Source: Phymorhynchus buccinoides
Taxonomy: Eukaryota > Mollusca > Gastropoda > Neogastropoda > Raphitomidae
Assembly: GCA_017654935.2 (NCBI GenBank)
Contig: CM065699.1
Coordinates: 3,726,782 to 3,790,781, forward strand
DNA length: 64,000 nt
Direction of reading: 5' to 3'
Positions 1 to 62,854 of this stretch are shown one piece after another; the first letter of the stretch is position 1, and each line of letters begins with the position of its first letter. Both the position numbers and the translations under genes were made by a program. The notes under the pieces were generated by a model, which saw nothing but the letters and a program-made list of their open reading frames with translations, was not told the origin of the DNA and ran no database searches.

Positions 1-225
1 TCCGTCAGTCCAGCAGTACTGCTTCTTTAGCCTTGACCACACTGTCTTTAACTACAGATAGAACACTCACAGCATAATGTTCCATCAGTGATGTCCAGCT
101 GTACTGCTTCTTTAGCCTTGACCACTGTCTTTACAGATAGAACACTCACAGCATAATGTTCCGTCAGTCCAGCTGTACTGCTTCTTTAGCCTTGACCACA
201 CTGTCTTTAACTCAACTCAGTCACA
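1..225 (-). repeat. Tandem copies of the TTC5 exon 4 donor edge
   Basis: About three head-to-tail copies (roughly 80-90 bp each) of a segment that, on the minus strand, matches the end of TTC5 exon 4 plus its donor. The copies still read [15 protein letters not shown] followed by a GTGAGT donor-like hexamer, with an estimated four-fifths base identity to the real exon end at 1207-1300. They lie downstream of exon 4 in transcription order, so they are intronic relics of exon-edge duplication. Confidence 0.75.
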
Positions 226-2636: not shown

Positions 2637-2670
<34 letters not shown>

Positions 2671-2759
2671 CACTGACAATCATAAGGTCCATACACTCAC
2701 ATGGTTCAGGGCTCCACTAGGCATGTCCCTTTCTTCCAGTGGCACTCCCCCAGCTGGTT

Positions 2760-2805
<46 letters not shown>

Positions 2806-2892
2806 CCAGTGACAATCATCCCATACACTCACATGGTTCAGGGCTCCACTAGGCATGTCCCCTTTCTTCCAGTGACACTCCCCCAGCTGGCT

Positions 2893-9743: not shown

Positions 9744-9811
<68 letters not shown>

Positions 9812-12800: not shown

Positions 12801-15800
12801 GCGCTTAGTTGAGTTAGTACATTGAAAGCAACAAGGGTTCTAAACGGTGATCTCCAAACAACAATTCTGTGTGCCTGTGTAAAATGATTTTATGCTATGC
12901 GAGTGGATCATGTAAAAGAAACTGAACGATCTAATTTGTTTTATGAAACAGATGTGTATTATATGCAATAATTTACCGCTTACTGATGACGATCACGAAG
13001 CCACAGTTCTGTGTGGTTGCGTAAAATGATACTGTACTTTGAAAGTACTTTCAGGTTTCTTGCTCTGATTTCTACTCAGTGTCTTCACCCTTATTCCTCA
13101 TTTTTGTCACTTTTTTCATCACATTGAAAAAAGAGCTAAGCTCTGAAACGTCTGTGTTATCTTCAATAAAGGACCAATACCGAACCTACAGCTTTTGTGT
13201 TTTTCCATTCATATGGTCCGAGTGGTCTTCTGAATCATTTAAGTGTACTTTGAAACTGACGGATCTAAAGCAAGACTGATCGATTAATCATGTATTTTGG
13301 TATTCTAGTCACAGAGACTTATCTCTGTGAAATTCGGGCTGCTCTCCCCCAGAGAGTGCATTGCTACAAGCACAGCGCCTACCCTTTTTTTTGGGGGGGG
13401 GGGGACATTGGGAAGAGGGGGTGTGGGGCAGACTTGGGAAAACTAGCTATAAATTTGGTCATGCCAGGCAGCGGGATTTCTCCCTGCTCTTACCGACGTT
13501 TAACTGCCATGGGATTTTTACGTGCGTAAGGCGCACAGGTCAGACTAGCTTTAAGTCCCCAACCGAAGGACTCGACATTTACTTCGATTTTCTTGTCGAA
13601 CTAGAAAGAAAGGGCGAGGTCAGGATTCAAACCCAGGTCACTCATGCTGCAGTCACTCTTTGGGACTGGTAGGCGAACGTCTTAGCCACTCTGCCAGCTT
13701 CCTTTCTATGAGAGTGGCGTATTGCGTTCGCAGGGGCCTACCTGATAGTGATCACTCATGCTGCAGTCACGCATTGTATTGTGGCGTATTGCGTTCGCAG
13801 GGGCCTACCTGATAGTGATCACTCATGCTGCAGTCACGCATTGTATTGTGGCGTATTGCGTTCGCAGGGGCCTACCTGATAGTGATCACTCATGCTGCAG
13901 TCACGCATTGTATTGTGGCGTATTGCGTTCGCAGGGGCCTACCTGATAGTGATCACTCATGCTGCAGTCACGCATTGTATTGTGGCGTATTGGGTTCGCA
14001 GGGGCCTACCTGATAGTGATCACTCATGCTGCAGTCACGCATTGTATTGTGGCGTATTGCGTTCGCAGGGGCCTACCTGATAGTGATCACTCATGCTGCA
14101 AGCGTATTGCGTTCGCAGGGGCCTACTTGATAGTGATCACTCATGCTGCAGTCACGCATTGTATTGTGGCGTATTGCGTTCGCAGGGGCCTACCTGATAG
14201 TGATCACTCATGCTGCAGTCACGCATTGTATTGTGGCGTATTGCGTTCGCAGGGGCCTACCTGATAGTGATCACGAAGCGGGAGAAAGTGGGTGAGCTGA
14301 TGGGCCACACCATCTGGAAGGTGGCCGACACCGAGGTCCACTCCTACAAGAGAACCACCACACACCTCACAGAGAAGCAGGTAGGATGCAGGGCTGCTCT
14401 TGTGTTGGTAGGGCAGGTGGGGCCCAGTGCATTTCTGTGTCCCATCATATCACTTTCGGGTGTTTCTTTTGCATAAGTTATAGGCAAGTTAGAACATAGG
14501 TTACACAGTGATGTACATGCAAATTAGATGCAGTTGATTTTCACAACGCATGGATGATGATCGATAAAGGGATGCCGTAAATTGTCTATAGGCAAGCTAG
14601 AACATAGGTTACACAGTGATTTTCATGCAAATTAGATGTATGTGGGTCACACCATATGGAAGGTGATTGATAAAGATCCACTCCTACAAAGTGCAACCCA
14701 TCTCACTGAGCCACAATAAATTAGATGTAGGTGGGTCACACCATATGGAAGGTGATTGATAAAGATCCACTCCTACAAAGTGCAACCCATCTCACTGAGC
14801 CACAATAAATTAGATGTATGTGGGTCACACCATATGGAAGGTGATTGATAAAGATCCACTCCTACAAAGTACAACCCATCTCAGTGAGCCACAATAAATT
14901 AGATGTATGTGGGTCACACCATATGGAAGGTGATTGATAAAGATCCACTCCTACAAAGTACAACCCATCTCAGTGAGCCACAATAAATTAGATGTATGTG
15001 GGTCACACCATATGGAAGGTGATTGATAAAGATCCACTCCTACAAAGTGCAACCCATCTCACTGAGCCACAATAAATTAGATGTATGTGGGTCACACCAT
15101 ATGGAAGGTGATTGATAAAGATCCACTCCTACAAAGTACAACCCATCTCAGTGAGCCACAATAAATTAGATGTATGTGGGTCACACCATATGGAAGGTGA
15201 TTGATAAAGATCCACTCCTACAAAGTACAACCCATCTCAGTGAGCCACAATAAATTAGATGTATGTGGGTCACACCATATGGAAGGTGATTGATAAAGAT
15301 CCACTCCTACAAAGTGCAACCCATCTCACTGAGCCACAATAAATTAGATGTATGTGGGTCACACCATATGGAAGGTGATTGATAAAGATCCACTCCTACA
15401 AAGTGCAACCCATCTCACTGAGCCACAATAAATTAGATGTATGTGGGTCACACCATATGGAAGGTGATTGATAAAGATCCACTCCTACAAAGTGCAACCC
15501 ATCTCACTGAGCCACAATAAATTAGATGTATGTGGGTCACACCATATGGAAGGTGATTGATAAAGATCCACTCCTACAAAGTGCAACCCATCTCACTGAG
15601 CCACAATAAATTAGATGTATGTGGGTCACACCATATGGAAGGTGATTGATAAAGATCCACTCCTACAAAGTACAACCCATCTCAGTGAGCCACAATAAAT
15701 TAGATGTATGTGGGTCACACCATATGGAAGGTGATTGATAAAGATCCACTCCTACAAAGTGCAACCCATCTCAGTGAGCCACAATAAATTAGATGTATGT

Positions 15801-18800: not shown

Positions 18801-21800
18801 CCAAAGCCAGGCAAGATTTTGGCGTAAGTGTGCTCTAAAAGCATGACTGATTTTTACAGACTGAGTAAGTGTATTGAACAAGTCGTACATGGTATGGTGG
18901 AGTTCATGCTGAAGACAGAGTTGTTCTACTTCTCCTGTACCTTTGACCTCAGCCAATTTACATGTGTCATTACAGACTGTATTGAACAAAGCATACCTGG
19001 CTATGGTGGAGTTCATGCTGAAGACAGAGTCATTCTACTTCTCCTGTACATTTGACCTCAGCCAATGTACATCTAATTTACATGTGTCATTACAGACTGT
19101 ATTGAACAAAGCATACCTGGCTATGGTGGAGTTCATGCTGAAGACAGAGTCATTCTACTTCTCCTGTACCTTTGACCTCAGCCAATGTACATCTAATTTA
19201 CATGTGTCATTACAGACTGTATTGAACAAAGCATACCTGGCTATGGTGGAGTTCATGCTGAAGACAGAGTCATTCTACTTCTCCTGCACCTTTGACCTCA
19301 GCCATTCCCTGCAGAGACTGCAAAACACCAGCCCCGACTTCAAGTCACTGGCACTGCATGAAAGAGTAAGTAAAATTAAACATATTTTTATATTTTCAAT
19401 GCATGGAAATTCTGTGGTGAGAGACTTTGGCTAAACGTCAATAAAGAGATCTCTTCCTACGTATATTGCAATTACCTCCATTATACAACTCCCTCCCATC
19501 TAAGAGCTTGGATGTTTTTTCAGGGTCTTAAAAGGGAGGTTCCACTGTAACTCTCAGTATACGTCACACAGGAAAGTCATGGACTTTTTGTTGTTGTAAA
19601 TCCCATCATTCCCACTTCCCTGCAAAGAGTGAACAAACCCAGCGCTTGCTTCAAATCACTGGAGTTACATGATGCCCTTTGATGGGCAGGACTTGTGGTG
19701 CATGGCAGTGTCTTTTTGTGTGTGAAGGGGAGTGTTGCTGTAAAAGTGCGTGTAACGTGGGGATGGGGTGGAGCAGGGTTTTTTGGTGGGAGAGCCAAAC
19801 TTGTTTGCTTTGACGAAAAAATCAGTGATATATTTGCACACACACACACACACATGCGCAAGCAAGTTCATGTATATAGTAATGCAAAGGAACAAAGCTA
19901 AGATTCTTTAATAGTCCATGATACAAAAAGATACATGAAAAAAAGAAGAAAAAAACCTACCTCGAACGTTGCAAAAGAGCTATGGAAACTATGTAAGCCT
20001 GTCAGTGAAGCAAAACTTGTACACTCACGCTTCAACTTGTATGCATTGTTTTCCTTTTTTTCCCCCAGGCTGACCAGAGGTTTGTGTGGAACGGCCACAT
20101 CCTTCGTGAGTTGACCCAACAGCCGGAGCTGAGCCGCTACTGTCTGCCCGTCATTTTGGGCTGTATCCTTATCGCAATTCGCGCTTGTGACAAGCAGGCA
20201 TCAGAATTGTCAGAGGATTCAGAATTTCTGACAGAGGATTGGCTTATCTTGTTTTGCCTTTTTATTGAGTGTTATCCTTTGTGTTAAATAGCATTTTAAA
20301 ATTGATTTATCACTATATTAAGCCTTTTTGGTGGTGTTCAGAACTGATTTCAGTGTTGCTCCTCTTTCATCTGAGCCCTTGATGGCCCTTTCACCACTGT
20401 TTTCAGAGGATTTGACTTCAGACTATTCTGATGCCTGGTCAAGGAACACCACACTCACTTCAATACACCCCGGAATTTTGTAGCTGCTACGAAGCAAGGC
20501 ATGCTTAATGTTTTCACAGGAGTTTGTCTGTTTTGCTCCTATCTGACTGACTGACTGGCTGGTTGATTCATGCTAACGCGATAGCATTTGAACGGAGGAA
20601 TCTAGAACCTTGAAATTTTGCATGCAGATAGGTAGTTAGGATATCTAGGCCAAGTTGGAGGATGAAGGTCATTGGTCACTGGAGCTGAAAATGTTGCCGT
20701 GCAGCTGTTTGATCTGGCGGTTTCTTGCTCTAGTCTTACCCATTATGCATCATATGGCCTGGGAACGCAGAAAAAGAAAGAAAGAAGAAGAACAATAACG
20801 CCAAGAGTATAGTAGAGGGAGGGTGGTAGGGAAGCGGGGGGAAATGGAATGTAAATGCGACGAAGGAACAAAATGAATGTACAACCGTCATGAGTGTCAT
20901 AATGCTCTTTAACGCATGGTAGTCATAGAGGTGTCGTCGTGCCAAGTGAACGGCAAGTCGTTCGACTACATCTTGATATCTCGGCGGTGTATCTACCGGG
21001 CGGGCACGCGGTTCAACGTGAGAGGGGTGGACTCCGAGGGCCAGGTGGCTAACTTTGTGGAGACGGAGCAGATCGTGCAGTACGAGGGACATCACTGCTC
21101 CTTTATACAGGTTGGTGACTGGCTAACTTTGTGGAGACGGAGCAGATCGTGCAGTACGAGGGACATCACTGCTCCTTTGTACAGGTTGGTGACTGGCTAA
21201 CTTTGTGGAGACGGAGCAGATCGTGCAGTACGAGGGACATCACTGCTCCTTTGTGCAGGTTGGTGACTGGCTAACTTTGTGGAGACGGAGCAGATCGTGC
21301 AGTACGAGGGACATCACTGCTGCTTTGTACAGGTTGGTGACTGGCTAACTTTGTGGAGACGGAGCAGATCGTGCAGTACGAGGGACATCACTGCTCCTTT
21401 GTGCAGGTTGGTGACTGGCTAACTTTGTGGAGACGGAGCAGATCGTGCAGTACGAGGGACATCACTGCTGCTTTGTACAGGTTGGTGACTGGCTAACTTT
21501 GTGGAGACGGAGCAGATCGTGCAGTACGAGGGACATCACTGCTCCTTTGTGCAGGTTGGTGACTGGCTAACTTTGTGGAGATGGAGCAGATCGTGCAGTA
21601 CGAGGGACATCACTGCTCCTTTATACAGGTTGGTGACTGGCTAACTTTGTGGAGACGGAGCAGATCGTGCAGTACGAGGGACATCACTGCTCCTTTGTGC
21701 AGGTTGGTGACTGGCTAACTTTGTGGAGACGGAGCAGATCGTGCAGTACGAGGGACATCACTGCTGCTTTGTACAGGTTGGTGACTGGCTAACTTTGTGG

Positions 21801-22279
21801 AGACGGAGCAGATCGTGCAGTACGAGGGACATCACTGCTCCTTTGTGCAGGTTGGTGACTGGCTAACTTTGTGGAGACGGAGCAGATCGTGCAGTACGAG
21901 GGACATCACTGCTCCTTTGTACAGGTTGGTGACTGGCTAACTTTGTGGAGACGGAGCAGATCGTGCAGTATGAGGGACATCACTGCTCCTTTGTACAGGT
22001 TGGTGATGGTGTGTGTGAGAACGAACCAACAAAATTGTATTTATACAGGGTAATGAAATAAGTATAAATACTTCTTTACACTCAGCCCTGTGGTGTGAAG
22101 GAGAAAAATATGGAAGCAAAACAAATAATGAAAAACAAATAAAGAAAAATGGAAAGGAACAACAGTGTAAATACAACGTAAATAATATGTTGTATCCATT
22201 AATGCTTAAGAGGAGAAGAGTAAGATAAATGAATCAGGAAGAAAACAAAAAAAGGAAGGACAGAAAGAAAGGGAGAGAG

Positions 22280-22331
<52 letters not shown>

Positions 22332-22357
22332 TCAGTCAGTCAAAATAAGAAACTGAC

Positions 22358-22395
<38 letters not shown>

Positions 22396-23876
22396 TCAGT
22401 CAGTCAAAATAAGAAACTGACAGGCAGAGAGACAGAGAGAGAGAGAGAGAGACAGTCAGTCAGAATGAGAAACTGACAGGCAGAGAGACACACAGAAAGA
22501 GAGAGAGACAGTCAGTCAGTCAAAATAAGAAACTGACAGGCAGAGAGAGAGTGAGAGACAGACAGTCAGTCAGAATGAGAAACTGACAGGCAGAGAGTGA
22601 GAGAGAGAGTTGTTGTTGCTTCAGTCTGTTGTGTTTTATGTCTATGCGAATGTAACTGAAGAATAAATCGTTTTAACCAGAGAAAGAAAACGTGTGAGTG
22701 GGCGTGTCACTGTTCCTTTGTACAGGTGTGTGTTAGAGATGTATGCTTAAACATGTGTGGTTTTCACACGGTGGTACGCTTGAAATGGTTTAGGTAGTTT
22801 GTATGGCTATAAGCCATAATATATGTCTTGAGAGGGAGAGGGAGACCTAGAGAGGGAGAGGGAGACCTAGAGAGGGAGAGGGAGACCTAGAGAGGGAGAG
22901 GGAGAGATAAAGGGGAGATGTGTGTGTAGGCGTGTGCGTGTGTCGAGTGAAGTGATTGTGCAGTAATCATAGGCACTGGTCCTTTGTACAGTTAAGGTTG
23001 AGCAGATGTAATTATGTGTGTGTATATGAGTATATATGGATACTTCTAATTGTATTATGCTTTATTATTTATTGCTTTCTTTTGCAGACCCGGGGCTCCA
23101 TCCCACTGTACTGGTCCCAAAAAGCCAACCTGCAGAGGCTACCCAGCCCCACACTACACGCCACAAACCATGTGAGGGTTCTGTCTTCTTTCATTATCTC
23201 TCTCTCTCTCTCTCTCTCTAACGTTGCTACGTTCATATGCTATGCTGTACAACAGAGGTTACCCAGCCCCACACTACACGCCACAAACCATGTGAGGGTT
23301 CTGTCTTCTTTCATTATCTCTCTCTCTCTCTCTAACGTTGCTACGTTCATATGCTATGCTGTACAACAGAGGTTACCCAGCCCCACACTACACGCCACAA
23401 ACCATGTGAGGGTTCTGTCTTCTTTCATTATCTCTCTCTCTCTCTCTAACGTTGCTACGTTCATATGCTTTGCTGTACAACAGAGGTTACCCAGCCCCAC
23501 ACTACACGCCACAAACCATGTGAGGGTTCTGTCTTCTTTGAGTGTCTCTCTCTCTCTGTGAAACGTTGCTATGTTCAAATAGTATGCTGTACAACAGAGG
23601 TTACCCAGCCCCATACTACACGCCACAAACCATGTGAGGGTTCTGTCTTCTTTGAGTGTCTCTCTCTCTCTGTGAAACGTTGCTATGTTCAAATAGTATG
23701 CTGTACAACAGAGGTTACCCAGCCCCACACTACACGCCACAAACCATGTGAGGGTTCTGTCTTCTTTCATTATCTCTCTCTCTCTCTCTAACGTTGCTAC
23801 GTTCATATGCTATGCTGTACAACAGAGGTTACCCAGCCCCACACTACACGCCACAAACCATGTGAGGGTTCTATCT

Positions 23877-23920
<44 letters not shown>

Positions 23921-26813: not shown

Positions 26814-26844
<31 letters not shown>

Positions 26845-38800: not shown

Positions 38801-40483
38801 ATGCAGTTTTGTACATAGTGTGGGCGGACAATGCAGACACTATTTTGTACGCTGTTTGTTATAGTGTGGGCGGACAATGCAGACTAGCTGACATTACGCT
38901 GACTTAACACAGGGCGGACGAGGAACACCCAACACACAGACGCTGTTGGGATGTCCTTTACAAACATATCACTTATAGGTTACTGAGCTCTAAAGGATCT
39001 TGAATATTGAAGCACACACTATTTGACACCAAAAAGCATCAAGAAGACTAAAAAATTTGTTAAAAAGTCCAGAGTCACAGAAATGTTGCTTGATCACGGA
39101 ATGTCCGTTTTGACCCTGATGCATGACATTGCAATGTTTGTCCCTGGAAATAACAAGTCTGTGTCCCTGGTTTGAAGTAGATTGTCCCTGGAAGCTGCAA
39201 CAGAGGGTAGTTAGGCAGCGCTGCAATAGAGCGTGTTCAGAGAAGAAGCCCCCCTCAATGAGTACGCTGTTTGTTATTGTGTGATAATGGAGTGAGCATT
39301 TCAGCCCTGAACTGTTTACACTGTAACTGTAAGGTGTTTTCCTGACTTTGGGTGATAATATGTCACCCCTTTTTCCCTGTGGCCACTTGTCCCCAGTAAC
39401 GTGTGATAATGGAGTGATAATATGTCGCTCTACCTTTGTCCTTTTTCCCTCTGTTGTGGCCACTTGTCCCCAGTAACGTGTGATAATGGAGTGATAATAT
39501 GTCGCTCTACCTTTGTCCTTTTTCCCTCTGTTGTGGCCACTTGTCCCCAGTAACGTGTGATAATGGAGTGATAATATGTCGCTCTACCTTTGTCCTTTTT
39601 CCCTCTGTTGTGGCCACTTGTCCCCAGTAACGTGTGATAATGGAGTGATAATATGTCGCTCTACCTTTGTCCTTTTTCCCTCTGTTGTGGCCACTTGTCC
39701 CCAGTAACGTGTGATAATGGAGTGATAATATGTCGCTCTACCTTTGTCCTTTTTCCCTCTGTTGTGGCCACTTGTCCCCAGTAACGTGTGATAATGGAGT
39801 GATAATATGTCGCTCTACCTTTGTCCTTTTTCCCTCTGTTGTGGCCACTTGTCCCCAGTAACGTGTGATAATGGAGTGATAATATGTCGCTCTACCTTTG
39901 TCCTTTTTCCCTCTGTTGTGGCCACTTGTCCCCAGTAACGTGTGATAATGGAGTGATAATATGTCGCTCTACCTTTGTCCTTTTTCCCTCTGTTGTGGCC
40001 ACTTGTCCCCAGTAACGTGTGATAATGGAGTGATAATATGTCGCTCTACCTTTGTCCTTTTTCCCTCTGTTGTGGCCACTTGTCCCCAGTAACGTGTGAT
40101 AATGGAGTGATAATATGTCGCTCTACCTTTGTCCTTTTTCCCTCTGTTGTGGCCACTTGTCCCCAGTAACGTGTGATAATGGAGTGATAATATGTCGCTC
40201 TACCTTTGTCCTTTTTCCCTCTGTTGTGGCCACTTGTCCCCAGTAACGTGTGATAATGGAGTGATAATATGTCGCTCTACCTTTGTCCTTTTTCCCTCTG
40301 TTGTGGCCACTTGTCCCCAGTAACGTGTGATAATGGAGTGATAATGGAGTGATAATATGTCGCTCTACCTTTGTCCTTTTTATTTCATTTTGTTTTTATT
40401 TTATTATTGTATTTTTTAAAAATGTTCAGATTCCACTGATCGAATCACAGCACTTTGTAAGAAAATACACACACACACACACA

Positions 40484-40572
<89 letters not shown>

Positions 40573-41637
40573 GTGTGTGTTTTTGTTTGTTTAGTAGGAT
40601 GTAAAAAAGCTTTATCAAGCTTACTCTTTTATCGTCAATAAAGATCATTTTGACTTGACTTGACTTGACACACGTGCGCTGCATGCGCACAGGGACAGAT
40701 TGAAGTAAAAAACCAACTTATGCAGGATTAGTTGATGCACCATAGTTATTAGTAGGAATCTCGATGGGTGTTAGGAGCTCAGCTGTAGGATATGTATATG
40801 ACAGATATTGCAAGAATTGCCTGCCAAAACGGCTGTCTCAAAAACAGTAAGGAATACAGACCTGCCTTTGTGTCAAGCAGTCCTTAATTTTCAAGTCAAG
40901 TCAAGTCAAGCACTCTTTATTATCTCAGCACAGCAGAGAAACGACTGCATTGTATTGATAGTATGGTTGTAGTGAAGTGGTTGTGTATTTGTATAATAAC
41001 AGGACATGACTGCATTGTCTTGGTAGTGTGGTTGTAGTGAAGTGGTGGTGTATTTGTCTAATAACAGGACAGGCAAGCGCACCGTAGTTGGAGCCTTGAT
41101 GGACGGGTGGAACTCAGCGGTACGCTACGTCAGAAACAACTTCCAGGATGGATACAGACAGGTAGATATACTCTGTGTGTTTGTTTGTGTGTGTGTTTGT
41201 TTGTGTGTGTGTTTGTTTGTGTGTGTGTTAGGTTAGGTTAGGTGCATTATAGTCACAGAGGCGTCTGTGAAATTCGGGTTGCTCCCTCCTGGAGAGCGCG
41301 TCGCAGCCAGAGGCGCGCCACCCAATTATTTTTATTTTTTTATTTTTTGCATTCAATTTTTGTGTGACTGATGAGGAAGGAAGAGGGGGGGGGTAAATTT
41401 TGATCAAATGACAACTTTTTCGTTGCTACTGGGTTTAACGTGTGCTAAGTGCATGAGCACACGGGACCTCGGTTTATCATCTCATCCAAAAGACTGTGTG
41501 TGTGTGTGTTTGTTTGTGTGTTTGTTTGTGAGTGTGTGTTTGTTTGTTTGTATTTGTTGTGTGTGTGTTTGTGTGTGCGTTTTTGTTTGCTTGTTTGTTT
41601 GTGTATGTGTGTTTGTGAGTTTGTGTTTGTTTGTTTG

Positions 41638-41673
<36 letters not shown>

Positions 41674-44600: not shown

Positions 44601-47600
44601 TGATCTGATTTTCCGTGGTGCCCATTGTCCAGGTACCTGGTTTCTGCTGTGCGAGACTTGGGAAGCCTAGCTATCAATTTGGTCATACCAGGCAGTGAGA
44701 TTTCTCCCTGCTTTTACCGACTTTTAACTGCCGTGGGATTTGTACGTGCGTAAAGCCCGCACGGGTCTGACTAGTTTTATGTCCCCATTCATGCCTTGGC
44801 TTAAGGCTGTGTCAGACCAACTGACATAGGCTAGAACACCAAGGCTACATCAAAATGTTGTTATACTTTGTATGGTTATTATTTATGCAGGAATTTCTTT
44901 AGCCTTGACTAGCTCCAAGCATAACGTCATCAGTCTCAGAAGACGGAGTGTGGCTGCCCACGTGCGAGGTAATCAAAAACGGTCACACGTAATGTTGTCA
45001 TCCGTAGCTGATGCACTTGTACCATAGTGTTCAAGGGCTTCTGCTGTTGGGATGATTCCTGGAGTCTTTTAGCCAGGGCAAGCCAACAACAACAACAACA
45101 ACAACAAGTCCCTATCCGAAGGACTCGACGTTCAGTTTGATTTTCCTGTCGAACTAGAAAGAAAGGGCGAAGCTGGGATTTGAACCCGGGTCACTCACGC
45201 TGCAGTCACGCTTTGAAATCGGCAGGCGAACGCCTTAACCACTGTGCCACCTTCCTTGTGTGTGTTGCAGGACTCTATTGACCTGTTTCTGGGCACCCAC
45301 ATCGTGGAGGAGACGGAGGGGCTGACCACCACTTCACCACTGGCCGTGCAGAGAGACTGGAAGTTCTATGCTGTAAGATGGACATAGAGAGTGTGTGTGT
45401 ATCTGTGTGAGAGAGAGAGAGAGGGGCTGACCACCACTTCACCACTGGCCGTGCAGAGAGACTGGAAGTTCTATGCTGTAAGATGGACATAGAGTATGTG
45501 TGTGTGTCTGTCTGTGTGTGTGAGAGAGAGAAAGAGAGAGAGAGACAGAGGGGCTGACCACCACGTCACCATTGACTGTGCAGAGAGACTGGAAGTTCTA
45601 CGCTGTAAGATGGACATAGAATGTGTCTCTGTGTGTGTGTACGTGCGTGCATGTGTGTGCATGTGTGTGAGTGTGAGAAGAGAGAGATATGGAGCTACGC
45701 TGTCATGTACATGATAATAATATTGGCATTTCTGTAGTGCATGTTCTAGAAATCCTTACTCATAGTCATAGCGCTTTGCAAGGAAATAAAAACTAAACAT
45801 TCCAATAAAGGCACTGTTATTCAAGCTTCCAACAATGACAAGCACGATTCGTTGCAGACTGCTCGTCATGCTCACAACTACAACTACATGTCATGGATTA
45901 TGTGTGTGTGTGTGTGTTAGAATACAAGTCAGTTGGGCTGCCATGTTACTACCACTGTCTCAGTTACAAGTTTAGAAATTCTGCGCTGTAGGATTGAGGT
46001 AAAGCACTATACTGTTATTATTATTATTATTATTATTGTTGTTGTTGTGGAAGATAGGGTGTTGGGAAATGCGGGGAGGGGAAGGGGGGTGGAAATGGGG
46101 TGAAGCGGACAGGGGATAGTTGGAGTTGAAGACAGCTGTCAAATATGTTTGATTACCATGAAATATTGCCTTATTTTTCTGACTATAAGTATAAGGCACA
46201 CCTTAATTTTATACAAAATTCAATTTTGTTATTATATTTTCTTACTATATTATCAGTATAAGGCGCAGGGGTCTAGGTCTTGGCAAAAAGTATCGCCTTA
46301 TAGTCTGAAAAACATGGTATTGATGTTACTAACATGTTGAGAATATAACCTGGTTTCATGTTTCTAACGGTGATGATGATGATGTGATGACAGATTCCAG
46401 TGGTGTGTCTGATCGCCCTCAGCATGATGGTCATCAGTCTCCTGCTGCCTGGAGGTCAGCACATCTTTTTATTTTGCTGTGTCATTATCCAGCCAGATCT
46501 GTGAAAATGGTTTGGGGTGAAGAATGGGGTGGAGAAGGGGGTGGAGAATGGGGTGGAGAATGGGGTGGAGAATGGGGTGGAGAATGGGGTGGAGGAGAAT
46601 GGGGTGGAGAATGGGGTGGAGGGGGTGGAGAATGGGGTGGAGAATGGGGTGGAGAATGGGGTGGAGAATGGGGTGGAGAGAATGGGGTGGAGAATGGGGT
46701 GGAGGAGAATGGGGTGGAGAATGGGGTGGAGAATGGGTGGAAGAAGGAGGGAAGCTTCAGACAAAGAAAGCGTAGAGGGAGGAAGAGAAATGGCGAGGAG
46801 AAAATGTAGGAAGCTTGATTTCCATATGGGGCTATTTTTGTTGGCTAATATTGCCAGCGATTTTCGACATTGGATGAAAAACCTTGCTTGCAGTTCCTTT
46901 AGTGCTATGATTTTCTATGGCGCTATTCAAACTTCGTGGGAGGGAGAAAAAAAGATCACGCCTATGGAATACAGCAAGGTTTTTCACCAGTTCCACAAGT
47001 TTCTCCATGCTTTTAGAAACCATGGTGGTTGCAGAAACAGCGTAATGTTTGAGCTCTGCCCACTTTCAGAGACAAAAATGTTTTGTTCTTAAACGGGTGA
47101 TAAAATCAATTTGCGAGCGATATTCGACTGACACTGTATGATTATCGCCCTACGGGTGTCCAGAATGACTATCATTGGTAGAAAATGAAAAATGGTGTTT
47201 TACGTCCTCTCGGTCATAGACACATATGGGACATTTGTAAATACAAAGACGGTGGGAACAACACTGGCTGCAATGCCCGGAGGCAGTGCAACACTAGTAA
47301 AGTCCCGAGTTTTTAACAATATAGATATGTGTAGCGGTAACCACGCCTCGGATAAACCTCATCGGCTATGGTACCGCCACAATAATTATCATACGAGTTT
47401 TATCATTGGTGGCGAAGAAATTTTAATTTTTATCGCTGTTGATTTTCATCTTAAAAGTTGCGCATGTGGAATTACTGCATTAAACTTTAAAGTACCGGTT
47501 GTTTTTTTAAAGCTATAAAGCGCACCTTATTATAAGGTGCACCTCCAAAAGGTGACACAAATTCACATTTTGTTATTATATTTTATTACAGTACGTCAAA

Positions 47601-49695
47601 CCTCTATTATAAGATCCTCCGTTAAAAGACCTCATTTCAGACTGATTATTTTTTAACGGATTAATGTATCTTACTATATTTTATGTATAAAACTGACCTC
47701 TGTTTTAAGACCCCTCTTATTTAAGACCCATTTTTTTTCTGACTTTTTGGAAGTCTTAAGATAGAGGTTTGACTGTATTAATAGTCATATAGGAGTAGGG
47801 GTCTCACTCTGGGAACTAAAGGTATTGCCTTATAGTCCCAAAAATACGGTATTGTTTTAAATCAGCACTTCGTGTGTTGACTGACTTTAGTTCAATCATG
47901 GGTTTAACTCGTCTAGCTCCATGGGCCAATATATTCACCCAGGACATCACTCTACACTCCCACCAAGTAGAAAGACATTCACTGCCAAGCACCCTGCCAT
48001 GCGTTTGTCTGTTTTTAGAGCCTTTGTCACTGGTTCTGCCGTTAAAGCAATGCATGTGCACTATATAAAATAAAAAACTTACCCCCCCCCCCTGTTGTCA
48101 GTTGAGATGCAACGGACATCCAAGTCCATAAAAAAATAGATGCGCTGGCGCTGGTAGAGAAGAAAATCCGATTCACGTCCTCCGGCCTGGAACAGGCACA
48201 TGTGGGACATTAATAGATATAAAGATGGTGGGACGATCCTGGAGGTACTGCAATGCCAGGGAAGTCCTGAGTTTTTAATCGATAAAGATATAGCCAACCA
48301 TTATTATCAGGCGCTAGAACTAGTAGAAGAGTTAAAAGCCGAGAAGTTATGATTGACGACGAAAATGGTGTTTTACGTCCTCTTGGTCTGAATCAGACAC
48401 ATATGGGACATTTGTAAATACAAATATGGTGGGAACAATACTGGAGGCAATGCTCGGAAGCAGTACGAAACCAGTAAAGTCCCGATTTGTTTATATTAAT
48501 ACAGATAGCTGTAGCGGTGACCACGCCTCGGTTAAACCTCATCGGCTATGGCACCGCCACAAGTGCATTACTTTACTTTATGAGAAGTTATGATTCAGAT
48601 TGTGTTTACTTTTTATCGGTGTTGCCTCTGTTTCAGTACTTGGCAGTGGGCGTTATTTAACTGTTAAATGCCACGCATTTATTGTGCATCAAAGTTGGTT
48701 CTATTCTTTTATATTTTTACTATAAAAAAAATTACGCCTAGAAATTTGTTAGGCTTCTATTATTTGTCGCTCATTATTATTTTATTTATATTGCATCTCA
48801 TTATTGCTTGGCATTTGTGTATGATAATCAGTGTGAATCATTGATTTGCATAATTGCTTTATTTGCTTTTTATTTCTAATGTATTCTGTGCATATAAAAC
48901 TTTTTGTGCCCCCTTTTCAGTTATTAATAAATGGCACATTGTGTTGATATTACCATTACATTTTTTTCTTCAGAGGCTTTTCTGTTTGTTGAATAAATAT
49001 TTATCTGTTTGTCGTAATATTGTCCTTTCTTTTGGCAGAGAATGCCGATGAACAGCTGATGTACGTGTTGTTCTGGGGATCAGACTTGCTTTAAATCCCC
49101 ATCCAAAGTTTCTAATTGTAATATTGTCCTTTCTTTTGGGAGAGAATGCCAATGAACAGCTGATGTACGTGTTGTTCTGGGGATCAGACTTGCTTTAAAT
49201 CCCCATCCAAAGTTTCTAATTGTAATATTGTCCTTTCTTTTGGCAGAGAACGCCAATGAACAGCTGATGTATGTGCTGTTCTGGGGATCAGACTTGCTTT
49301 AAGTCCCCATCCAAAGTTTCTAATTGTAATATTGTCCTTTCTTTTGGCAGAGAACGCCAATGAACAGCTGATGTACGTGCTGTTCTGGGGATCAGACTTG
49401 CTTTAAGTCCCCATCCAAAGTTTCTAATTGTAATATTGTCCTTTCTTTTGGCAGAGAACGCCAATGAACAGCTGATGTACGTGCTGTTCTGGGGATCAGA
49501 CTTGCTTTAAGTCCCCATCCAAAGCTTCCCATCGTGATATTGTCCTTTCTTTGTGCAGAGAATGCCAACGAGCAGCTGATGTATGTGCTGTTCTGGGGGT
49601 CGGCCACTGCGGTTTCCATGGCGATCATGATGCTGTTCGGCACGACGTTCGTGGACCAGCCTCGTCTGACGCAGGACAAGATGAAGACGGAATAG
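8362..49695 (+). CDS. SACM1L: Sac1 phosphoinositide phosphatase (SACM1L orthologue)
   Basis: Eighteen exons: 8362-8387, 9585-9682, 11562-11639, 14253-14380, 19216-19365, 20069-20162, 20923-21110, 23088-23171, 25498-25566, 26555-26634, 28110-28208, 29952-30090, 30613-30682, 14 (start only, inside 30841-38885), 41068-41161, 45271-45372, 46394-46454, 49559-49695. All junctions keep phase. Visible coding is 434 plus 130 residues, so with exon 14 about 589, close to human 587. The Sac domain carries [12 protein letters not shown] (catalytic Cys387, Arg393, CX5R) and YFQQQRDGS. Two C-terminal membrane segments and a KMKTE end (KXKXX COPI retrieval type) fit an ER/Golgi protein that removes the 4-phosphate of PI4P. 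At least eleven exons have splice-edge tandem arrays. About 17 codons of exon 14 are missing from the sequence, so an intact product cannot be assembled from this window. Confidence 0.93.
8880..9060. repeat. Duplicated 3'-tail-like fragment with AAT runs
   Basis: Two copies of GGTGATTTGAAT...CTCAAGGCATTTGATAATAAT followed by ATTAGCCCA..AGTGCTTTACAA. AAT runs next to a GCTTTACAA motif resemble the 3' tails of non-LTR elements; class unproven. Confidence 0.45.
9164..9186 (+). repeat. Poly-C tract (23 nt)
   Basis: Uninterrupted C run in Sac1 intron 1. Confidence 0.9.
9585..9682 (+). CDS. SACM1L: Sac1 exon 2
   Basis: Encodes [14 protein letters not shown] to [10 protein letters not shown]. Acceptor TTTTCAG, donor CAAG|GTACCG, phase 2 to 1. 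Confidence 0.92.
9747..9811 (+). repeat. Poly-C tract (65 nt as assembled)
   Basis: Sixty-five consecutive C residues 64 bp after the exon 2 donor. Exact length is unreliable because homopolymers of this size are error-prone. Confidence 0.85.
10170..10450. mobile_element. Dispersed repeat H, copy 1
   Basis: Matches 47880-48125 in order (AGCACCATGGGCGAATATATTC, AAAGACATTCACTGCC, GTCAGTTGAGATGCAA). Non-coding; class unknown. Confidence 0.55.
10944..11211 (-). mobile_element. Partial copy of the TATGTGACCCAGCACCAC element
   Basis: Reverse-complement match to 55401-55831, retaining one terminal repeat that ends at GGTCACATA (11211) and lacking the other end. Truncated TIR element in Sac1 intron 2. 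Confidence 0.65.
11562..11639 (+). CDS. SACM1L: Sac1 exon 3
   Basis: Encodes [20 protein letters not shown] to IIRLVAG (first and last Gly split). Acceptor ATTCAG, donor GCAG|GTCTGT. Confidence 0.93.
11711..12431. mobile_element. Tc1/mariner-type non-autonomous element
   Basis: Left end ACAGTAGAACCTCCCTT and inverted right end ACAGTGGAACCTCCCTT, with a TA at the left boundary. The interior carries no transposase frame. A partial copy of the right half lies at 19476-19553. The superfamily is suggested by the terminal motif and TA and is not proven. Confidence 0.6.
12622..12780 (+). mobile_element. Dispersed repeat G, copy 1
   Basis: Shares GTCCTCCGGTCTG..CAGACACAT and GGAGGCAATGCCCGGAGGC with three other copies (47185-47400, 48150-48300, 48355-48560). 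Non-coding; class unknown. Confidence 0.6.
13122..13152 (+). other. Hammerhead-like hairpin remnant
   Basis: AGAGC-TAA-GCTCT hairpin followed by GAAACGTC, resembling the stem II plus GAAAC part of a minimal hammerhead ribozyme of Penelope-like elements. The CUGAUGA box is degenerate (CATTGAA), so it would be inactive. Low confidence. Confidence 0.3.
13303..13700 (-). mobile_element. tRNA-derived SINE-B, copy 1
   Basis: On the minus strand the head reads TGGCAGAGTGGCTAAG (box A-like) and GGGTTTGAATCC (box B-like), followed by a body shared with 44650-45256 and a tail segment (AGTCACAGAG..CTGTGAAATTCGGG) also present in SINE-A copies. It ends about 30 bp upstream of the first exon 4 acceptor copy, antisense to Sac1. 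Confidence 0.75.
13717..14252 (+). repeat. Exon 4 acceptor-edge array, 67 bp x 9
   Basis: Nine copies of acceptor TTCGCAG followed by exon start GGGCCTACCTGATAGTGATC. Acceptor G positions are 13733, 13800, 13867, 13934, 14001, 14068, 14118, 14185 and 14252; one unit has a 17-bp deletion and one reads TTGGGTTC. Only the last copy continues into the complete exon. Each unit also carries CACTCATGCTGCAGTCAC, which is part of the SINE-B head at 13640. Confidence 0.93.
14253..14380 (+). CDS. SACM1L: Sac1 exon 4
   Basis: Encodes [17 protein letters not shown] to TTTHLTEKQ, donor CAG|GTAGGA, phase 1 to 0. Matches the NYLIVITKK block of Sac1 proteins. Confidence 0.95.
14632..17392 (+). repeat. 89-bp x 31 array derived from exon 4
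   Basis: Head-to-tail 89-bp units. GGGTCACACCATATGGAAGG, GATCCACTCCTACAAAG and CTCACTGAGCCACAA align in order with exon 4 bases from the GGCCACACCATCTGGAAGG stretch to the LTEKQ end. The copies have frame-destroying indels and no donor. A few sites alternate between units (GTGCAACC/GTACAACC, CACTGAG/CAGTGAG), indicating higher-order homogenisation. Confidence 0.85.
17435..18715 (+). repeat. ~31-bp array (GTGGCTTCTGGTTTTTGGAGT), ~40 copies
   Basis: Variable minisatellite in intron 4, units 25-35 bp, built on AAATGTGGCTTCTGG-TTTTTGGAGTGCC. Split by a TTAA-flanked MITE at 18082-18310. I find no exon homology. The Trp/Phe/Cys-rich frames are not genes. Confidence 0.9.
18082..18310. mobile_element. 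piggyBac-like MITE, copy 2
   Basis: TTAA at 18078-18081 and 18311-18314; ends CCCTTTCACAACC.GCC and GGCGGTGAAAGGG. Body homologous to 43570-44161. Inserted into the 31-bp array, so younger than it. Confidence 0.8.
18858..19215 (+). repeat. Exon 5 acceptor-edge array, 120 bp x 4
   Basis: Acceptors TTACAG at 18975, 19095 and 19215 plus a decayed one at about 18860. Each is followed by exon 5 sequence ([29 protein letters not shown]), then a 30-bp spacer leading to the next acceptor. The unit is 40 codons and copies 2-4 stay open in the exon frame. Confidence 0.92.
19216..19365 (+). CDS. SACM1L: Sac1 exon 5
   Basis: Encodes [15 protein letters not shown] to [16 protein letters not shown], donor AGA|GTAAGT, phase 0 both ends. 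The last copy of the array is the one that runs on past [12 protein letters not shown]. Confidence 0.94.
19476..19553. mobile_element. Fragment of the ACAGTGGAACCTCCC element
   Basis: Matches the right-hand part of 11711-12431, ending in GGGAGGTTCCACTGT. Confidence 0.5.
20069..20162 (+). CDS. SACM1L: Sac1 exon 6
   Basis: Encodes [18 protein letters not shown] to CLPVILG plus one base. Acceptor CCCCCAG, weak-looking donor T|GTATCC. Matches the RFVWNGHLLREL block. Confidence 0.92.
20195..20437. mobile_element. MITE CAGGCATCAGAAT, copy 1
   Basis: Inverted ends CAGGCATCAGAATTGTC and CAGGCATCAGAATAGTC. Flanks GACAAG and GTCAAG form a 6-bp TSD with one mismatch. Inserted 32 bp after the exon 6 donor. 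Second copy at 60326-60592. Confidence 0.8.
20923..21110 (+). CDS. SACM1L: Sac1 exon 7
   Basis: Encodes [20 protein letters not shown] to [18 protein letters not shown]. The acceptor is GGTAG at 20921-20922: the nearby ATAG would create a stop, and this choice restores the family GFI. Donor CAG|GTTGGT, phase 1 to 0. Confidence 0.92.
21037..22003 (+). repeat. Exon 7 donor-edge array, 74 bp x 13
   Basis: Thirteen donors CAG|GTTGGT every 74 bp from 21111 to 21999, each preceded by the exon's last 54 bases ([20 protein letters not shown]). Only the first copy is attached to the complete exon. The period is not a multiple of three, and readthrough from copy 1 hits TAA in copy 2. Confidence 0.95.
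22260..22610 (+). repeat. (GA)n tracts alternating with GTCAGTCAGTC units
   Basis: Five GA-rich tracts separated by GACAGTCAGTCAG...AAACTGACAGGCAGAG units. Confidence 0.85.
22829..22908 (+). repeat. GAGAGGGAGAGGGAGACCTA x ~4
   Basis: 20-bp direct repeat in intron 7. Confidence 0.85.
23088..23171 (+). CDS. SACM1L: Sac1 exon 8
   Basis: Encodes [20 protein letters not shown] to LHATNH. Acceptor TTTTGCAG, donor CAT|GTGAGG, phase 0 both ends. Matches TRGSIPVFWSQ. Confidence 0.94.
23130..23950 (+). repeat. Exon 8 donor-edge array, 114-120 bp x 7
   Basis: Donors CAT|GTGAGG at 23172, 23292, 23406, 23520, 23634, 23748 and 23862. Each is preceded by the last 40 or so exon bases (AGGTTACCCAGCCCCACAC..) and followed by a CT microsatellite and GTTGCTACGTTC. 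All periods are multiples of three, and the exon frame stays open from 22956 to 23561 across the first four copies. Confidence 0.95.
24290..25497 (+). repeat. Exon 9 acceptor-edge array, 65 bp x ~19
   Basis: Each unit is GATGACCAGATATCGTGTTG, a TG-rich stretch, acceptor TTGTTTCAG, and the exon start ATGAGTACCTTTCAGAAGCA. The first acceptor is at 24320. The last copy, with ATGAGTGCC, leads into the complete exon. A few units have small deletions. Confidence 0.95.
25498..25566 (+). CDS. SACM1L: Sac1 exon 9
   Basis: Encodes [18 protein letters not shown] to VIVNL, donor CTG|GTGAGT, phase 0. Matches MDGFQRHFDSQ..YGKQVIINL. Confidence 0.93.
25850..26330 (+). repeat. 65-bp array in intron 9, ~7-8 copies
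   Basis: Units GACCAGTGAACAAGATCACT..CTGATTTTTCATAGGTACTA..GAGTTTGTAACTATA. No exon homology recognised. Confidence 0.9.
26555..26634 (+). CDS. SACM1L: Sac1 exon 10
   Basis: Encodes [20 protein letters not shown] to NKNI plus two bases. Acceptor CTGCAG, donor AA|GTAAGA. Confidence 0.9.
26696..26963 (+). mobile_element. tRNA-derived SINE-A, copy 1
   Basis: Head with box A-like TGGCACAGTGGTAGCG and box B-like GAGTTCGAACC. Then a body with GGATGAGACGATAAACCGAGG, and a tail (CACAGAG..CTCTGTGACTATAATG) shared, in reverse complement, with 41246 and SINE-B. The acceptor stem does not pair, so it is not a tRNA gene. Confidence 0.75.
27502..27610 (+). pseudogene. Decayed duplicate of Sac1 exon 11
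   Basis: Intron sequence and acceptor (GTGACAG) followed by [21 protein letters not shown], homologous to exon 11 ([21 protein letters not shown]) in the same phase. It then runs into TAA at 27608-27610 and has no donor. The upstream 30 bp also match those of exon 11, so this was a genomic duplication of exon plus acceptor about 570 bp apart. Confidence 0.85.
28110..28208 (+). CDS. SACM1L: Sac1 exon 11
   Basis: Encodes [20 protein letters not shown] to [11 protein letters not shown] (ends split). Acceptor TTATAG, donor GG|GTGAGT. Matches [16 protein letters not shown]. Confidence 0.94.
28186..28705 (+). repeat. Exon 11 donor-edge array, 85 bp x 6
   Basis: Donors GG|GTGAGT at 28209, 28294, 28379, 28464, 28548 and 28633, each preceded by GATAGGAAGCGCTTT (exon end) and followed by a conserved intron segment. 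Confidence 0.94.
29185..29951 (+). repeat. Exon 12 acceptor-edge array, 123 bp x 5 plus a decayed copy
   Basis: Acceptors at 29459, 29582, 29705, 29828 and 29951, exactly 123 bp apart, followed by CTATTTCCAGCAACAAAGAG. All upstream copies carry an in-frame TGA where the true exon has TGC (CAG TGC GGG against CAA TGA GAG). A sixth relic is at 29185-29245. Confidence 0.94.
29245..29395. mobile_element. TATAAGGCGC-type MITE, copy 1
   Basis: Ends ACCATAG.TTTTTGGAC and CGTCTGAAAAATATG. Shares CAGACTGAGACCCCTG and the CCTTATAGT motif with 41817, 46167, 47492 and 57040. Confidence 0.6.
29952..30090 (+). CDS. SACM1L: Sac1 exon 12 (catalytic)
   Basis: Encodes [30 protein letters not shown] (CX5R P-loop, Cys387 and Arg393) to LQTLNEQLT, donor ACG|GTAAGT. 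These motif residues are the active site of Sac-domain phosphatases. Confidence 0.96.
30165..30566. mobile_element. Dispersed repeat F, copy 2
   Basis: Uninterrupted homologue of 472-1137; ends about 45 bp before the exon 13 acceptor. Confidence 0.6.
30613..30682 (+). CDS. SACM1L: Sac1 exon 13
   Basis: Encodes [20 protein letters not shown] to FRN plus G. Acceptor TTTTGCAG, donor AATG|GTGAGA. The next codon must be completed by TG, as supplied by the 46-bp repeat. Confidence 0.92.
30841..38885 (+). repeat. 46-bp satellite made from the exon 14 acceptor edge, ~170 copies
   Basis: Unit GTGTGGGCGGACAATGCAGA..CACTATTTTGTACGCTG..TTTGTTATA. It contains acceptor TTGTTATAG and then TGTGGGCGGACAATGCAGAC, which after exon 13's G reads VWADNAD, the conserved Sac1 AWADNA block. 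Most units are identical. Scattered ones are truncated or scrambled (for example near 32550, 33600, 36360, 37770 and 38640). The first units (30841-30960) and last units (38620-38885) are the most degenerate. The array occupies about 8 kb. Confidence 0.95.
38865..38884 (+). other. SACM1L: Sac1 exon 14, 5' part only (position ambiguous)
   Basis: The last array copy supplies acceptor TTATAG and WADNAD codons but then reads TAG. In human Sac1 this exon continues with a QYAGTGALKTDFTR block. No such sequence is present between 30683 and 41067, so the true exon 14 is missing or misassembled. Confidence 0.4.
38886..39395. other. Dispersed-repeat debris between two arrays
   Basis: Contains AGAAGAAGCCCCCCTCAAT..CATTTCAGCCCTG, matching the reverse complement of about 55948-55985, interrupted at 39261-39292 by a hybrid of the neighbouring arrays. 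The minus-strand 157-codon frame here is not a recognisable gene. Confidence 0.5.
39396..40350 (+). repeat. 77-bp array, ~12 copies
   Basis: Units GTAACGTGTGATAATGGAGT..ATATGTCGCTCTACC..CTCTGTTGTGGCCACTTG, virtually identical to each other, so recently homogenised. No exon homology seen. Confidence 0.95.
40471..40570 (+). repeat. (CA)n microsatellite
   Basis: About 100 bp of nearly pure CA. Confidence 0.95.
40943..41067 (+). repeat. Exon 15 acceptor-edge duplication, 65 bp x 2
   Basis: Two copies of GACTGCATTGT..GTAGTGAAGTGG..TAATAACAG, with acceptors at 41002 and 41067. The first is followed by GACATGAC, the second by the true exon GACAGGC. Confidence 0.85.
41068..41161 (+). CDS. SACM1L: Sac1 exon 15
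   Basis: Encodes [20 protein letters not shown] to NNFQDGYRQ, donor CAG|GTAGAT. It enters in phase 2, as expected from the family (Arg split). Matches TGKRTHLGLIMDGWNS. Confidence 0.94.
41246..41497 (-). mobile_element. SINE-A, copy 2, headless
   Basis: Reverse-complement match to the body and tail of 26696-26963 (CATTATAGTCACAGAGGC to CCTCGGTTTATCATCTCATCC). The tRNA-like head is replaced by a GT/TTTG microsatellite (41498-41672). Confidence 0.65.
41498..41672 (+). repeat. (GT)n / GTTT microsatellite
   Basis: Imperfect GT/TTTG tract; the Cys/Val-rich frames across it are not genes. Confidence 0.9.
41817..41989. mobile_element. TATAAGGCGC-type MITE, copy 2
   Basis: Ends CCATATTTTTCAGGCTATAA and TTATAGTCTGAAAAATATGG as inverted repeats; central TTGTTATTATATTTTCTTAC shared with 46167 and 47492. 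Confidence 0.7.
42025..43565 (+). repeat. 77-bp array, ~20 copies
   Basis: Units CTGTGACATGTATAAAATAA..GGCTTCCTTTCCTCATCTTC..GAGCATTAGATTCAGCTATG, differing mainly at one site (TTCACACA or TTCCCACA). Intron 15. No exon homology seen. Confidence 0.95.
43570..44161. mobile_element. piggyBac-like MITE, copy 3, split by a LINE end
   Basis: TTAA at 43566-43569 and 44162-44165; ends CCCTTTCACCGCCA and inverted TGGCGGTGAAAGGG type. Interrupted by a LINE fragment with perfect AAAGT duplication. Directly abuts the last unit of the 77-bp array. Confidence 0.85.
43588..43950 (+). mobile_element. 5'-truncated LINE 3' end, TSD AAAGT
   Basis: Starts in the C-terminal ORF2 codons ([26 protein letters not shown], stop at 43704-43706), followed by a 3' UTR and an (ATT)n tail, flanked by AAAGT at 43583-43587 and 43951-43955. 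The peptide is homologous to the end of the LINE at 62855. Confidence 0.85.
44650..45256 (-). mobile_element. SINE-B, copy 2, split by SINE-C
   Basis: 44650-44803 and 45108-45256 together match 13430-13700; the head (GGTGGCACAGTGGTTAAGG with GGGTTCAAATCCC on the minus strand) ends 14 bp upstream of the exon 16 acceptor sequence. Confidence 0.75.
44803..45107 (+). mobile_element. SINE-C-like element, copy 2, nested in SINE-B
   Basis: Matches 530-840, with an (AAC)n tail at 45090-45106. Flanking TGTCCC/AGTCCC is the likely target duplication. Confidence 0.65.
45271..45372 (+). CDS. SACM1L: Sac1 exon 16
   Basis: Encodes [20 protein letters not shown] to [13 protein letters not shown], donor GCT|GTAAGA, phase 0. 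Matches [20 protein letters not shown]. Confidence 0.94.
45316..45620 (+). repeat. Exon 16 donor-edge array, 3 copies
   Basis: Donors GCT|GTAAGATGG at 45373, 45478 and 45605, each preceded by GAGGGGCTGACCACCAC..GACTGGAAGTTCTA and separated by GT/GA microsatellites of different length. Confidence 0.93.
46167..46321. mobile_element. TATAAGGCGC-type MITE, copy 3
   Basis: Ends GCCTTATTTTTCTGACTATA and CCTTATAGTCTGAAAAACAT in inverted orientation. Confidence 0.65.
46394..46454 (+). CDS. SACM1L: Sac1 exon 17 (first membrane segment)
   Basis: Encodes [20 protein letters not shown] plus G, a hydrophobic segment. Acceptor GATGACAG, donor GGAG|GTCAGC. Matches the first C-terminal transmembrane helix. 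Confidence 0.9.
46510..46745 (+). repeat. (GGGGTGGAGAAT)n minisatellite
   Basis: 12-bp unit, about 19 copies, purine-rich strand with regular GGGG runs. Open frames in several phases are artefacts of the repeat. Confidence 0.95.
47185..47400 (+). mobile_element. Dispersed repeat G, copy 2
   Basis: GGTGTTTTACGTCCTCTCGG to GGTACCGCCAC; matches 48355-48560 most closely. Confidence 0.6.
47492..47852. mobile_element. TATAAGGCGC-type MITE, copy 4, split by another MITE
   Basis: Outer halves 47492-47588 and 47776-47852 match the family; the middle is a separate TA-flanked element. Confidence 0.65.
47589..47775. mobile_element. TA-flanked MITE nested in copy 4
   Basis: Inverted ends CAGTACGTCAAACCTCTAT and CAGTCAAACCTCTATCTTA, with TA at both boundaries (47587-47588, 47776-47777); Tc1/mariner-type by termini. 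Confidence 0.65.
47880..48125. mobile_element. Dispersed repeat H, copy 2
   Basis: Homologous to 10170-10450, directly followed by a repeat G copy. Confidence 0.55.
48150..48560 (+). mobile_element. Dispersed repeat G, copies 3 and 4
   Basis: 48150-48300 resembles copy 1; 48355-48560 resembles copy 2, ending in GGCTATGGCACCGCCAC. Confidence 0.6.
49020..49558 (+). repeat. Exon 18 acceptor-edge array, 104 bp x 6
   Basis: Acceptors at 49038, 49142, 49246, 49350, 49454 and 49558, exactly 104 bp apart. Each is followed by exon start AGAATGCC or AGAACGCC..GAACAGCTGATGTA..TTCTGGGGATC. The first five copies then read DLL and TAA; only the last continues as the true exon. The second has GGGAG in place of GGCAG. 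Confidence 0.95.
49559..49695 (+). CDS. SACM1L: Sac1 exon 18 (second membrane segment, stop)
   Basis: Encodes [37 protein letters not shown] and TQDKMKTE, then TAG. It carries the second transmembrane helix and a KXKXX-type C-terminus like the human KEKID end. Confidence 0.95.
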
Positions 49696-62551: not shown

Positions 62552-62628
62552 CCATCACCACCACTCACCCCACCCAAAAAACACAATACAAAATACAATC
62601 AGTTGAACAAAGCATCAACATACACACA

Positions 62629-62758
<130 letters not shown>

Positions 62759-62854
62759 ACAAAGCTGACGTACACATTGCAGTCAACACACAGTGAAACT
62801 AATATGGGGGGAGGGGAGTGTGTGTGTGAGAATAGAGTCCAGAAGTAATGTGGC

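Follow-up and report, generated by a model that had tools for sequence, protein, structure and literature searches.

Tandem arrays spanning splice junctions in Sac1 and other sampled genes of the gastropod Phymorhynchus buccinoides

Tandem duplications lying across the boundary between an exon and its intron have been described in amphioxus as "mirages", for which passages of two papers report minisatellite-like arrays in Adh3, TnC, the globin genes BflGb6 and BflGb9, and PGBD5 (PMC3087553, PMC3902484). According to these passages, mirages involve either 5' or 3' splice sites, have repeat units of 10-160 bp, vary in copy number and retain the AG or GT dinucleotide in many copies; their mechanism is called unclear, and they are proposed to feed intron gain (PMC3087553, PMC3902484). 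Passages of the same papers support normal splicing by RT-PCR for some genes (PMC3087553, PMC3902484), and somatic instability at amphioxus Adh3 is cited in a passage of PMC3087553. Related routes include intron gain by tandem genomic duplication, as in potato RdRp (PMC4974935), and the Rogers-type AGGT duplication idea, as cited in a passage of PMC3087553. Other studies of repeats deal, in the passages available, with intronic, simple or unspecified tandem repeats rather than junction arrays (PMC12783039, PMC6905558, PMC3862624, PMC2206037). In the open-licence PMC literature, covered through titles and the starts of abstracts, no mollusc case of junction arrays was found among the matches listed.

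In this work we describe arrays of this kind in a gastropod, beginning with a stretch of 64,000 nucleotides, hereafter the window (CM065699.1, positions 3,726,782 to 3,790,781), and extending to loci sampled from the same genome. As in mirages, the repeat unit of the snail arrays, in both Sac1 and the CCT genes, spans the exon-intron boundary; arrays occur at 5' as well as 3' exon boundaries; one authentic copy is joined to the exon and the extra copies are intronic, with exon 14 of Sac1 as the exception; and many of the extra copies keep AG or GT.

The plus-strand gene of the window is Sac1, a phosphoinositide phosphatase, as identified by a Pfam Syja_N match and by PDB entries named phosphoinositide phosphatase SAC1; its joined exons share protein identities of 82% with Nucella lapillus, 81% with Babylonia and 76% with Littorina. 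Exon positions were set from the Nucella protein match together with splice signals. Exons 1-13 and exons 15-18 form two open translated blocks with AG/GT at all inner splice sites, and the sole break between the blocks is the missing body of exon 14. TTC5, identified by a PDB match, is the minus-strand neighbour at the start of the window. Other features include a run of 65 C at 9747-9811, in Sac1 intron 2, and a long minus-strand open frame at 62602-63999 which we take to resemble the reverse transcriptase of a non-LTR element.

The original prediction named eleven arrays in Sac1 with their periods, and Tandem Repeats Finder (TRF) recovered each of them at its exon, with periods of 67 (exon 4), 120 (exon 5), 74 (exon 7), 114 (exon 8), 65 (exon 9), 85 (exon 11), 123 (exon 12), 46 (exon 14), 65 (exon 15), 105 (exon 16) and 104 bp (exon 18). 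Seven acceptor and four donor junctions are thereby affected. BLAST searches of each Sac1 exon with 40 bp of flank against the window agreed with the predicted polarity, in which acceptor copies lie upstream and carry the 5' part of the exon and donor copies lie downstream and carry the 3' part; exons 14 and 15 were read from the sequence. All features of Sac1 given below are on the plus strand, and the arrays rest on TRF and BLAST unless otherwise stated.

Among the acceptor arrays, that of exon 4 (13714..14274) has a 67 bp unit with 22 exon bases per copy and leads into the complete exon at 14253..14380, which is placed by the Nucella protein match and its splice sites. Just 3' of the exon 4 donor, at 14387-14474, lies a repeat element whose genome matches are 80-93% identical (51 among the 81 matches listed). 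Further downstream, an array of 31 units of 89 bp (14629..17396; TRF, BLAST and protein match), absent from the original prediction, is a decayed version of bases 49-122 of the 128 in exon 4; as no donor can be recognised in it, it was counted as non-junction. The acceptor-side copies of exon 5 (18870..19304) comprise an older copy at 18870-18955 (91% identical) and the 120 bp array at 18955-19304, with the complete exon at 19216..19365 (splice sites, translation and BLAST) and a decayed downstream copy of exon bases 90-146 at 19616-19672 (BLAST). The 65 bp array of exon 9 (24283..25532; exon 25498-25566) shows an identical 8 bp at its two outer edges, a microhomology that was clear in this array only and unclear at the others viewed. 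Exon 12 (29952-30090) has a 123 bp array at 29430..30007 and an older partial copy at 29173-29238 (BLAST); a 24-bp fragment of this exon at 30141-30164 is short and may be a chance match. The array of exon 15 (40943..41071; exon 41068-41161; TRF and sequence) consists of two 65 bp units with only 4-5 exon bases, and that of exon 18 (49014..49598; exon 49559-49695) has a 104 bp unit.

Donor arrays are found at exon 7 (complete at 20923..21110 by splice sites and translation), where 13 units of 74 bp occupy 21046..22006; at exon 8 (23088-23171), with a 114 bp unit at 23133..23903; at exon 11 (28110-28208), with an 85 bp unit at 28181..28697; and at exon 16 (45271-45372), with a unit of 105/127 bp at 45316..45638. 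Exon 11 also has an old single acceptor copy at 27499..27600, covering -38 to +63 at 84% identity (BLAST). In general, the exon copies in Sac1 are between 74% and 100% identical to their exon by BLAST, a spread which indicates that the duplication process has probably been long-running.

The units are mutually unrelated, as predicted: comparison of 18 of them gave 2 matches of 13 bp, at chance level, and since they share no sequence they are not the product of one mobile element. This upholds the independence of what had been called eleven independent events; the number itself is an undercount, given the older copies also present at exons 4, 5, 11 and 12. The complete exon had been placed always at the exon-side end of its array, which holds for ten of the eleven; in exon 14, reading through the final copy leads to a stop. 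Some unit pieces recur elsewhere with at most 4 mismatches, that of the exon 18 unit at 13542 and in one sampled locus (L004), and that of the exon 4 unit at 13638 and 45191. Pieces that look like a dispersed SINE repeat (13638, 13542, 45191 and 49082-49498) occupy the point where exon gives way to intron within the units of exons 4 and 18, and could be filler acquired as the duplication took place; ARAGORN found no tRNA gene.

TTC5 carries comparable copies on the minus strand. Donor copies of one exon, whose real version ends at 2967, occupy 1779..2892 and are interrupted by (ATC)n (sequence and protein-level copies); the next exon is represented by copies of its 3' part and donor, with a 79 bp unit, at 1..209 (TRF, sequence and protein-level copies). 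By strict overlap, 2 of 6 TTC5 arrays are at junctions against 0.4 expected (P=0.056), and three further arrays consist of exon copies.

To place these arrays against chance, each was collapsed to one unit and then randomly placed. The enrichment at Sac1 splice junctions that had been predicted was borne out by this null model: across the Sac1 body, 10 of the 17 TRF arrays with a period of at least 40 span an annotated junction, or 11 when the exon 14 acceptor is included, against an expectation of 1.9, and none of 200,000 trials reached 11. In a BLAST control using one detector throughout, a nearby same-strand copy was found for 9 of the 16 windows placed on exons, compared with 292 of the 1500 placed in introns (P=0.0012); some of the latter hits coincide with exon-derived copies. 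When intron windows were also allowed over the junction arrays, 135-164 of 600 were positive. In this like-for-like comparison the junction effect is smaller, yet it remains.

Arrays might, of course, lie everywhere and be noticed only when they bear exon sequence, a form of ascertainment that had itself been put forward as a possible explanation. We therefore consider loci picked by protein family. The genome of the snail, which comprises 2.119 Gb in 3962 contigs and was searched in parts, was queried with Pfam PF00118 with arrays disregarded, and exons were modelled by protein match before TRF was applied. From 54 matches, 45 were used, leaving aside single or stray matches on contigs C20, C9, C15, C27 and C3 and a second HSPD1 copy on C7; the resulting 11 CCT/HSP60 loci represent 9 genes, with CCT4 and CCT7 in two pieces each. 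A second set comprised 10 kb of each of four ATPase loci. The sample beyond Sac1 amounts to 16 loci, with Sec1-family loci outside it.

In the CCT/HSP60 loci, 23 of 51 arrays span an exon edge, against an expectation of 6.1 (SD 2.3; maximum 17 in 20,000 placements); 13 are at acceptors, 9 at donors and 1 at both. The ATPase set alone gave a weak result, with 5 of 13 arrays at junctions where 2.7 were expected (P=0.10); the two sets pooled gave 28 of 64 against 8.9. The original prediction would have fallen had there been no excess over randomly placed arrays genome-wide; on this sample of genes an excess was seen. Partial copies were present at the protein level for 27 of the 92 modelled exons of the CCT set, and their polarity repeated that of Sac1, the 5' part of the exon being present in 45 of 49 upstream copies and the 3' part in 42 of 43 downstream copies. 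Across 17 loci including Sac1 and TTC5, BLAST found upstream copies at 31 of 136 modelled exons and downstream copies at 25. These modelled exons are approximate, being set by protein match: a missed exon counts as intron and lowers the observed number, certain modelled exons could be copies in their own right, and the expectation is raised by some long arrays that entered the null with a multiple of their basic unit. Overall, arrays at exon edges in the genes sampled are about three-fold commoner than expected by chance. The density of junction arrays also differs strongly between genes (loci L001-L024), being high in CCT5 (10 of 16) and CCT6 (6 of 9) and, by strict overlap, nil in CCT3 (0 of 6), CCT8 (0 of 4) and two loci with one array each.

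Ascertainment as the main cause is thus not borne out, since TRF called the arrays without knowledge of exons and the excess recurs in family-picked loci. A related explanation invokes composition, in that GC-rich DNA might be favoured for duplication and exons are GC-rich: GC content is 0.577 in exons, 0.393 in introns and 0.435 in intronic array units, the latter being slightly GC-rich, and 51 of 91 arrays are intronic. Against a pooled expectation of 8.9 without weighting, a null weighted by GC to match the intronic units gives 11.3, and the most extreme weighting applied, well past that match, gives 19.8. A GC preference is insufficient as a cause, as the 28 arrays observed exceed even this value, and we consider ascertainment and composition, taken together, a very improbable explanation of the excess.

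A further question is whether exons simply lie in regions rich in arrays. Non-junction arrays showed no significant clustering beside exons, with 8 of 51 within 100 bp against 5.3 expected and 5 within 50 bp against 2.7; there is thus no clear general halo, and an exonic breakpoint seems to be what matters. The closest of the non-overlapping arrays, 4 bp away from the end of a modelled exon, could in fact belong to a junction.

We propose that these arrays are mirage-type minisatellites produced by duplication with exon-intron breakpoints, that their excess is mutational, and that its preferred cause is exon-anchored repair between haplotypes, an account that in our judgement stands an even chance of being right. 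A short local segment running from an exon into the adjoining intron, or from intron into exon, would be duplicated in tandem, and recurrently so; ordinary minisatellite turnover would then lengthen and shorten the array. The copy still attached to the remaining exon would stay functional, and the others would become intron sequence bearing truncated exon ends and spare splice sites. The excess would be mutational in that duplication breakpoints fall preferentially in exons, and the cause we favour is the repair of breaks between divergent haplotypes, where exons may be the only stretches that still align and may thus anchor both strand invasion and its errors. Duplications lying wholly within an exon would be removed by selection, leaving those that cross its edge. 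Polarity had been ascribed to selection for one intact exon, which is not needed: when a junction is duplicated in tandem, just one of the end copies can be continuous with the remaining exon, so that the polarity of the arrays follows from geometry. With respect to haplotypes, HSPD1 is present twice, about 70 kb apart (C7:35956050-36055345), in copies that are 93-95% alike where compared and that may be haplotypes or a recent duplication (paralogues); they share a donor array, which has 10.2 units in one copy and is shorter in the other, with 4.9 units that are more diverged.

Breakage could instead be linked to transcription or splicing, with polymerase pausing, R-loops or replication conflicts at splice sites leading to slippage. 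Polymerase pausing has been reported near splice sites, which counts in favour of this explanation, as does the involvement of acceptors and donors alike; the latter, however, fits any exon-edge process, and speaks against a cause confined to acceptors or to donors. In addition, a search of both strands of 12 non-junction units found no general enrichment of splice-site-like motifs, using a weak matrix built from this gene's own sites, which was small and had one donor mis-set; the exceptions were the unit at 56188, which stands out on the minus strand (p<0.001), and that at 17431, which is marginal (p=0.048). We regard transcription-linked breakage as unlikely. A spliced RNA template, for its part, would be unable to supply the intron beside the exon.

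The extra copies also bear on whether junction duplications arise no more often than others but persist, either because spare sites aid exon recognition in long and unstable introns or because loss of the functional copy is not tolerated. Of 341 extra copies, 339 retain the splice dinucleotide, 169 of these being exon 14 copies (under another window, AG is kept in 166 of 170 exon 14 copies), and columns of the splice core are variable in 12 of 194 cases compared with 141 of 1164 elsewhere in the copies (P ~0.009). The donor core accounts for 0 variable columns of 63 in the first set and 3 of 90 with added arrays (P=0.007). Against such selection, the acceptor core alone is not significantly constrained (9 of 104 variable columns, P=0.12), a control core shifted by +12 columns is also low in variation (P=0.05), and copies were located by similarity to a junction-centred window, which biases the count toward a conserved core. 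Furthermore, the units of exon 12 have amino-acid changes and a stop in their exonic portion, two TTC5 copies outside the count of 341 are without GT, and an undeletable copy would prolong the life of an array only modestly. Constraint on the spare splice sites, as read from these alignments, may therefore serve as a lead only, and we think it improbable that selection or survival accounts for the excess.

Exon 14 raises the matter of assembly. Its array of about 170 units of 46 bp (30838..38884, plus strand; TRF, sequence and protein match) carries the acceptor and the first ~22 exon bases. The last ~18 codons (~54 bases) known from Nucella were not found in the window, including the region 30838-39300, and no match to the exon body came up elsewhere in the genome when the Nucella protein was searched at E 0.001, a cut-off at which an exon of this length might escape. 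The end of the exon was either lost at assembly within the 8-kb array, or belongs to a broken allele. The absence of the exon 14 body, together with the location of 5 of the 11 CCT loci on small contigs, might suggest that the arrays are assembly artefacts as a whole. Their short units, their mutated copies, their presence on chromosome-sized contigs too and the same polarity in unrelated units all argue against this, and we give it hardly any credence.

Returning to exon-anchored repair, exons copied on both sides offer a view of the breakpoints themselves. In 2 of 9 such exons the upstream copy ends where the downstream copy starts (89/90 in Sac1 exon 5 and 69/69 in CCT5, locus L001, near 7018-7167), and the breakpoints of Sac1 exon 12 nearly coincide (56/58); in the other 7 of 9 they are not coincident. 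The coinciding breakpoints may reflect a single two-ended break in the exon, copied outward both ways, which we offer as a lead and not as proof. More broadly, highly polymorphic animal genomes may harbour a distinct mutational process in which exon-anchored repair copies exon halves into both flanking introns, seeding spare splice sites and eventually new introns and exon extensions genome-wide; this larger claim is tentative, and we would sooner expect it to fail than to hold.

The arrays are of wider interest for several reasons. In passages on amphioxus, mirages figure as a side observation on a few genes, and their occurrence in a second phylum, at high density and with a measured bias toward junctions, turns the duplication of exon edges into a testable question of why it happens. 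With up to ~170 spare splice sites in one intron, the snail bears on splice-site choice and on junction duplications as a source of new introns. Arrays of this kind may also mislead gene prediction and, as exon 14 illustrates, may swallow exons in assemblies.

Together these observations place the snail arrays among several known systems. They resemble introner elements in occupying many independent intron-associated sites; introner elements share a sequence family, whereas the snail sites are without a common element, as the 18 units compared indicate. With tandem-duplication intron gain they have in common that coding DNA and splice signals are duplicated in tandem; there, however, a new intron forms inside an exon, and here junctions are duplicated into existing introns. 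Compared with mirages, the host is a gastropod and the arrays are denser, with 11 junctions in Sac1 and partial copies at 7 of 9 CCT5 exons, set against one or a few boundaries per gene in the amphioxus passages; and, unlike mirages as described there, their statistical excess over junctions has been measured. As far as our searches go, the snail arrays are therefore known in kind from amphioxus and new in their host, their density and their measured excess at exon junctions.
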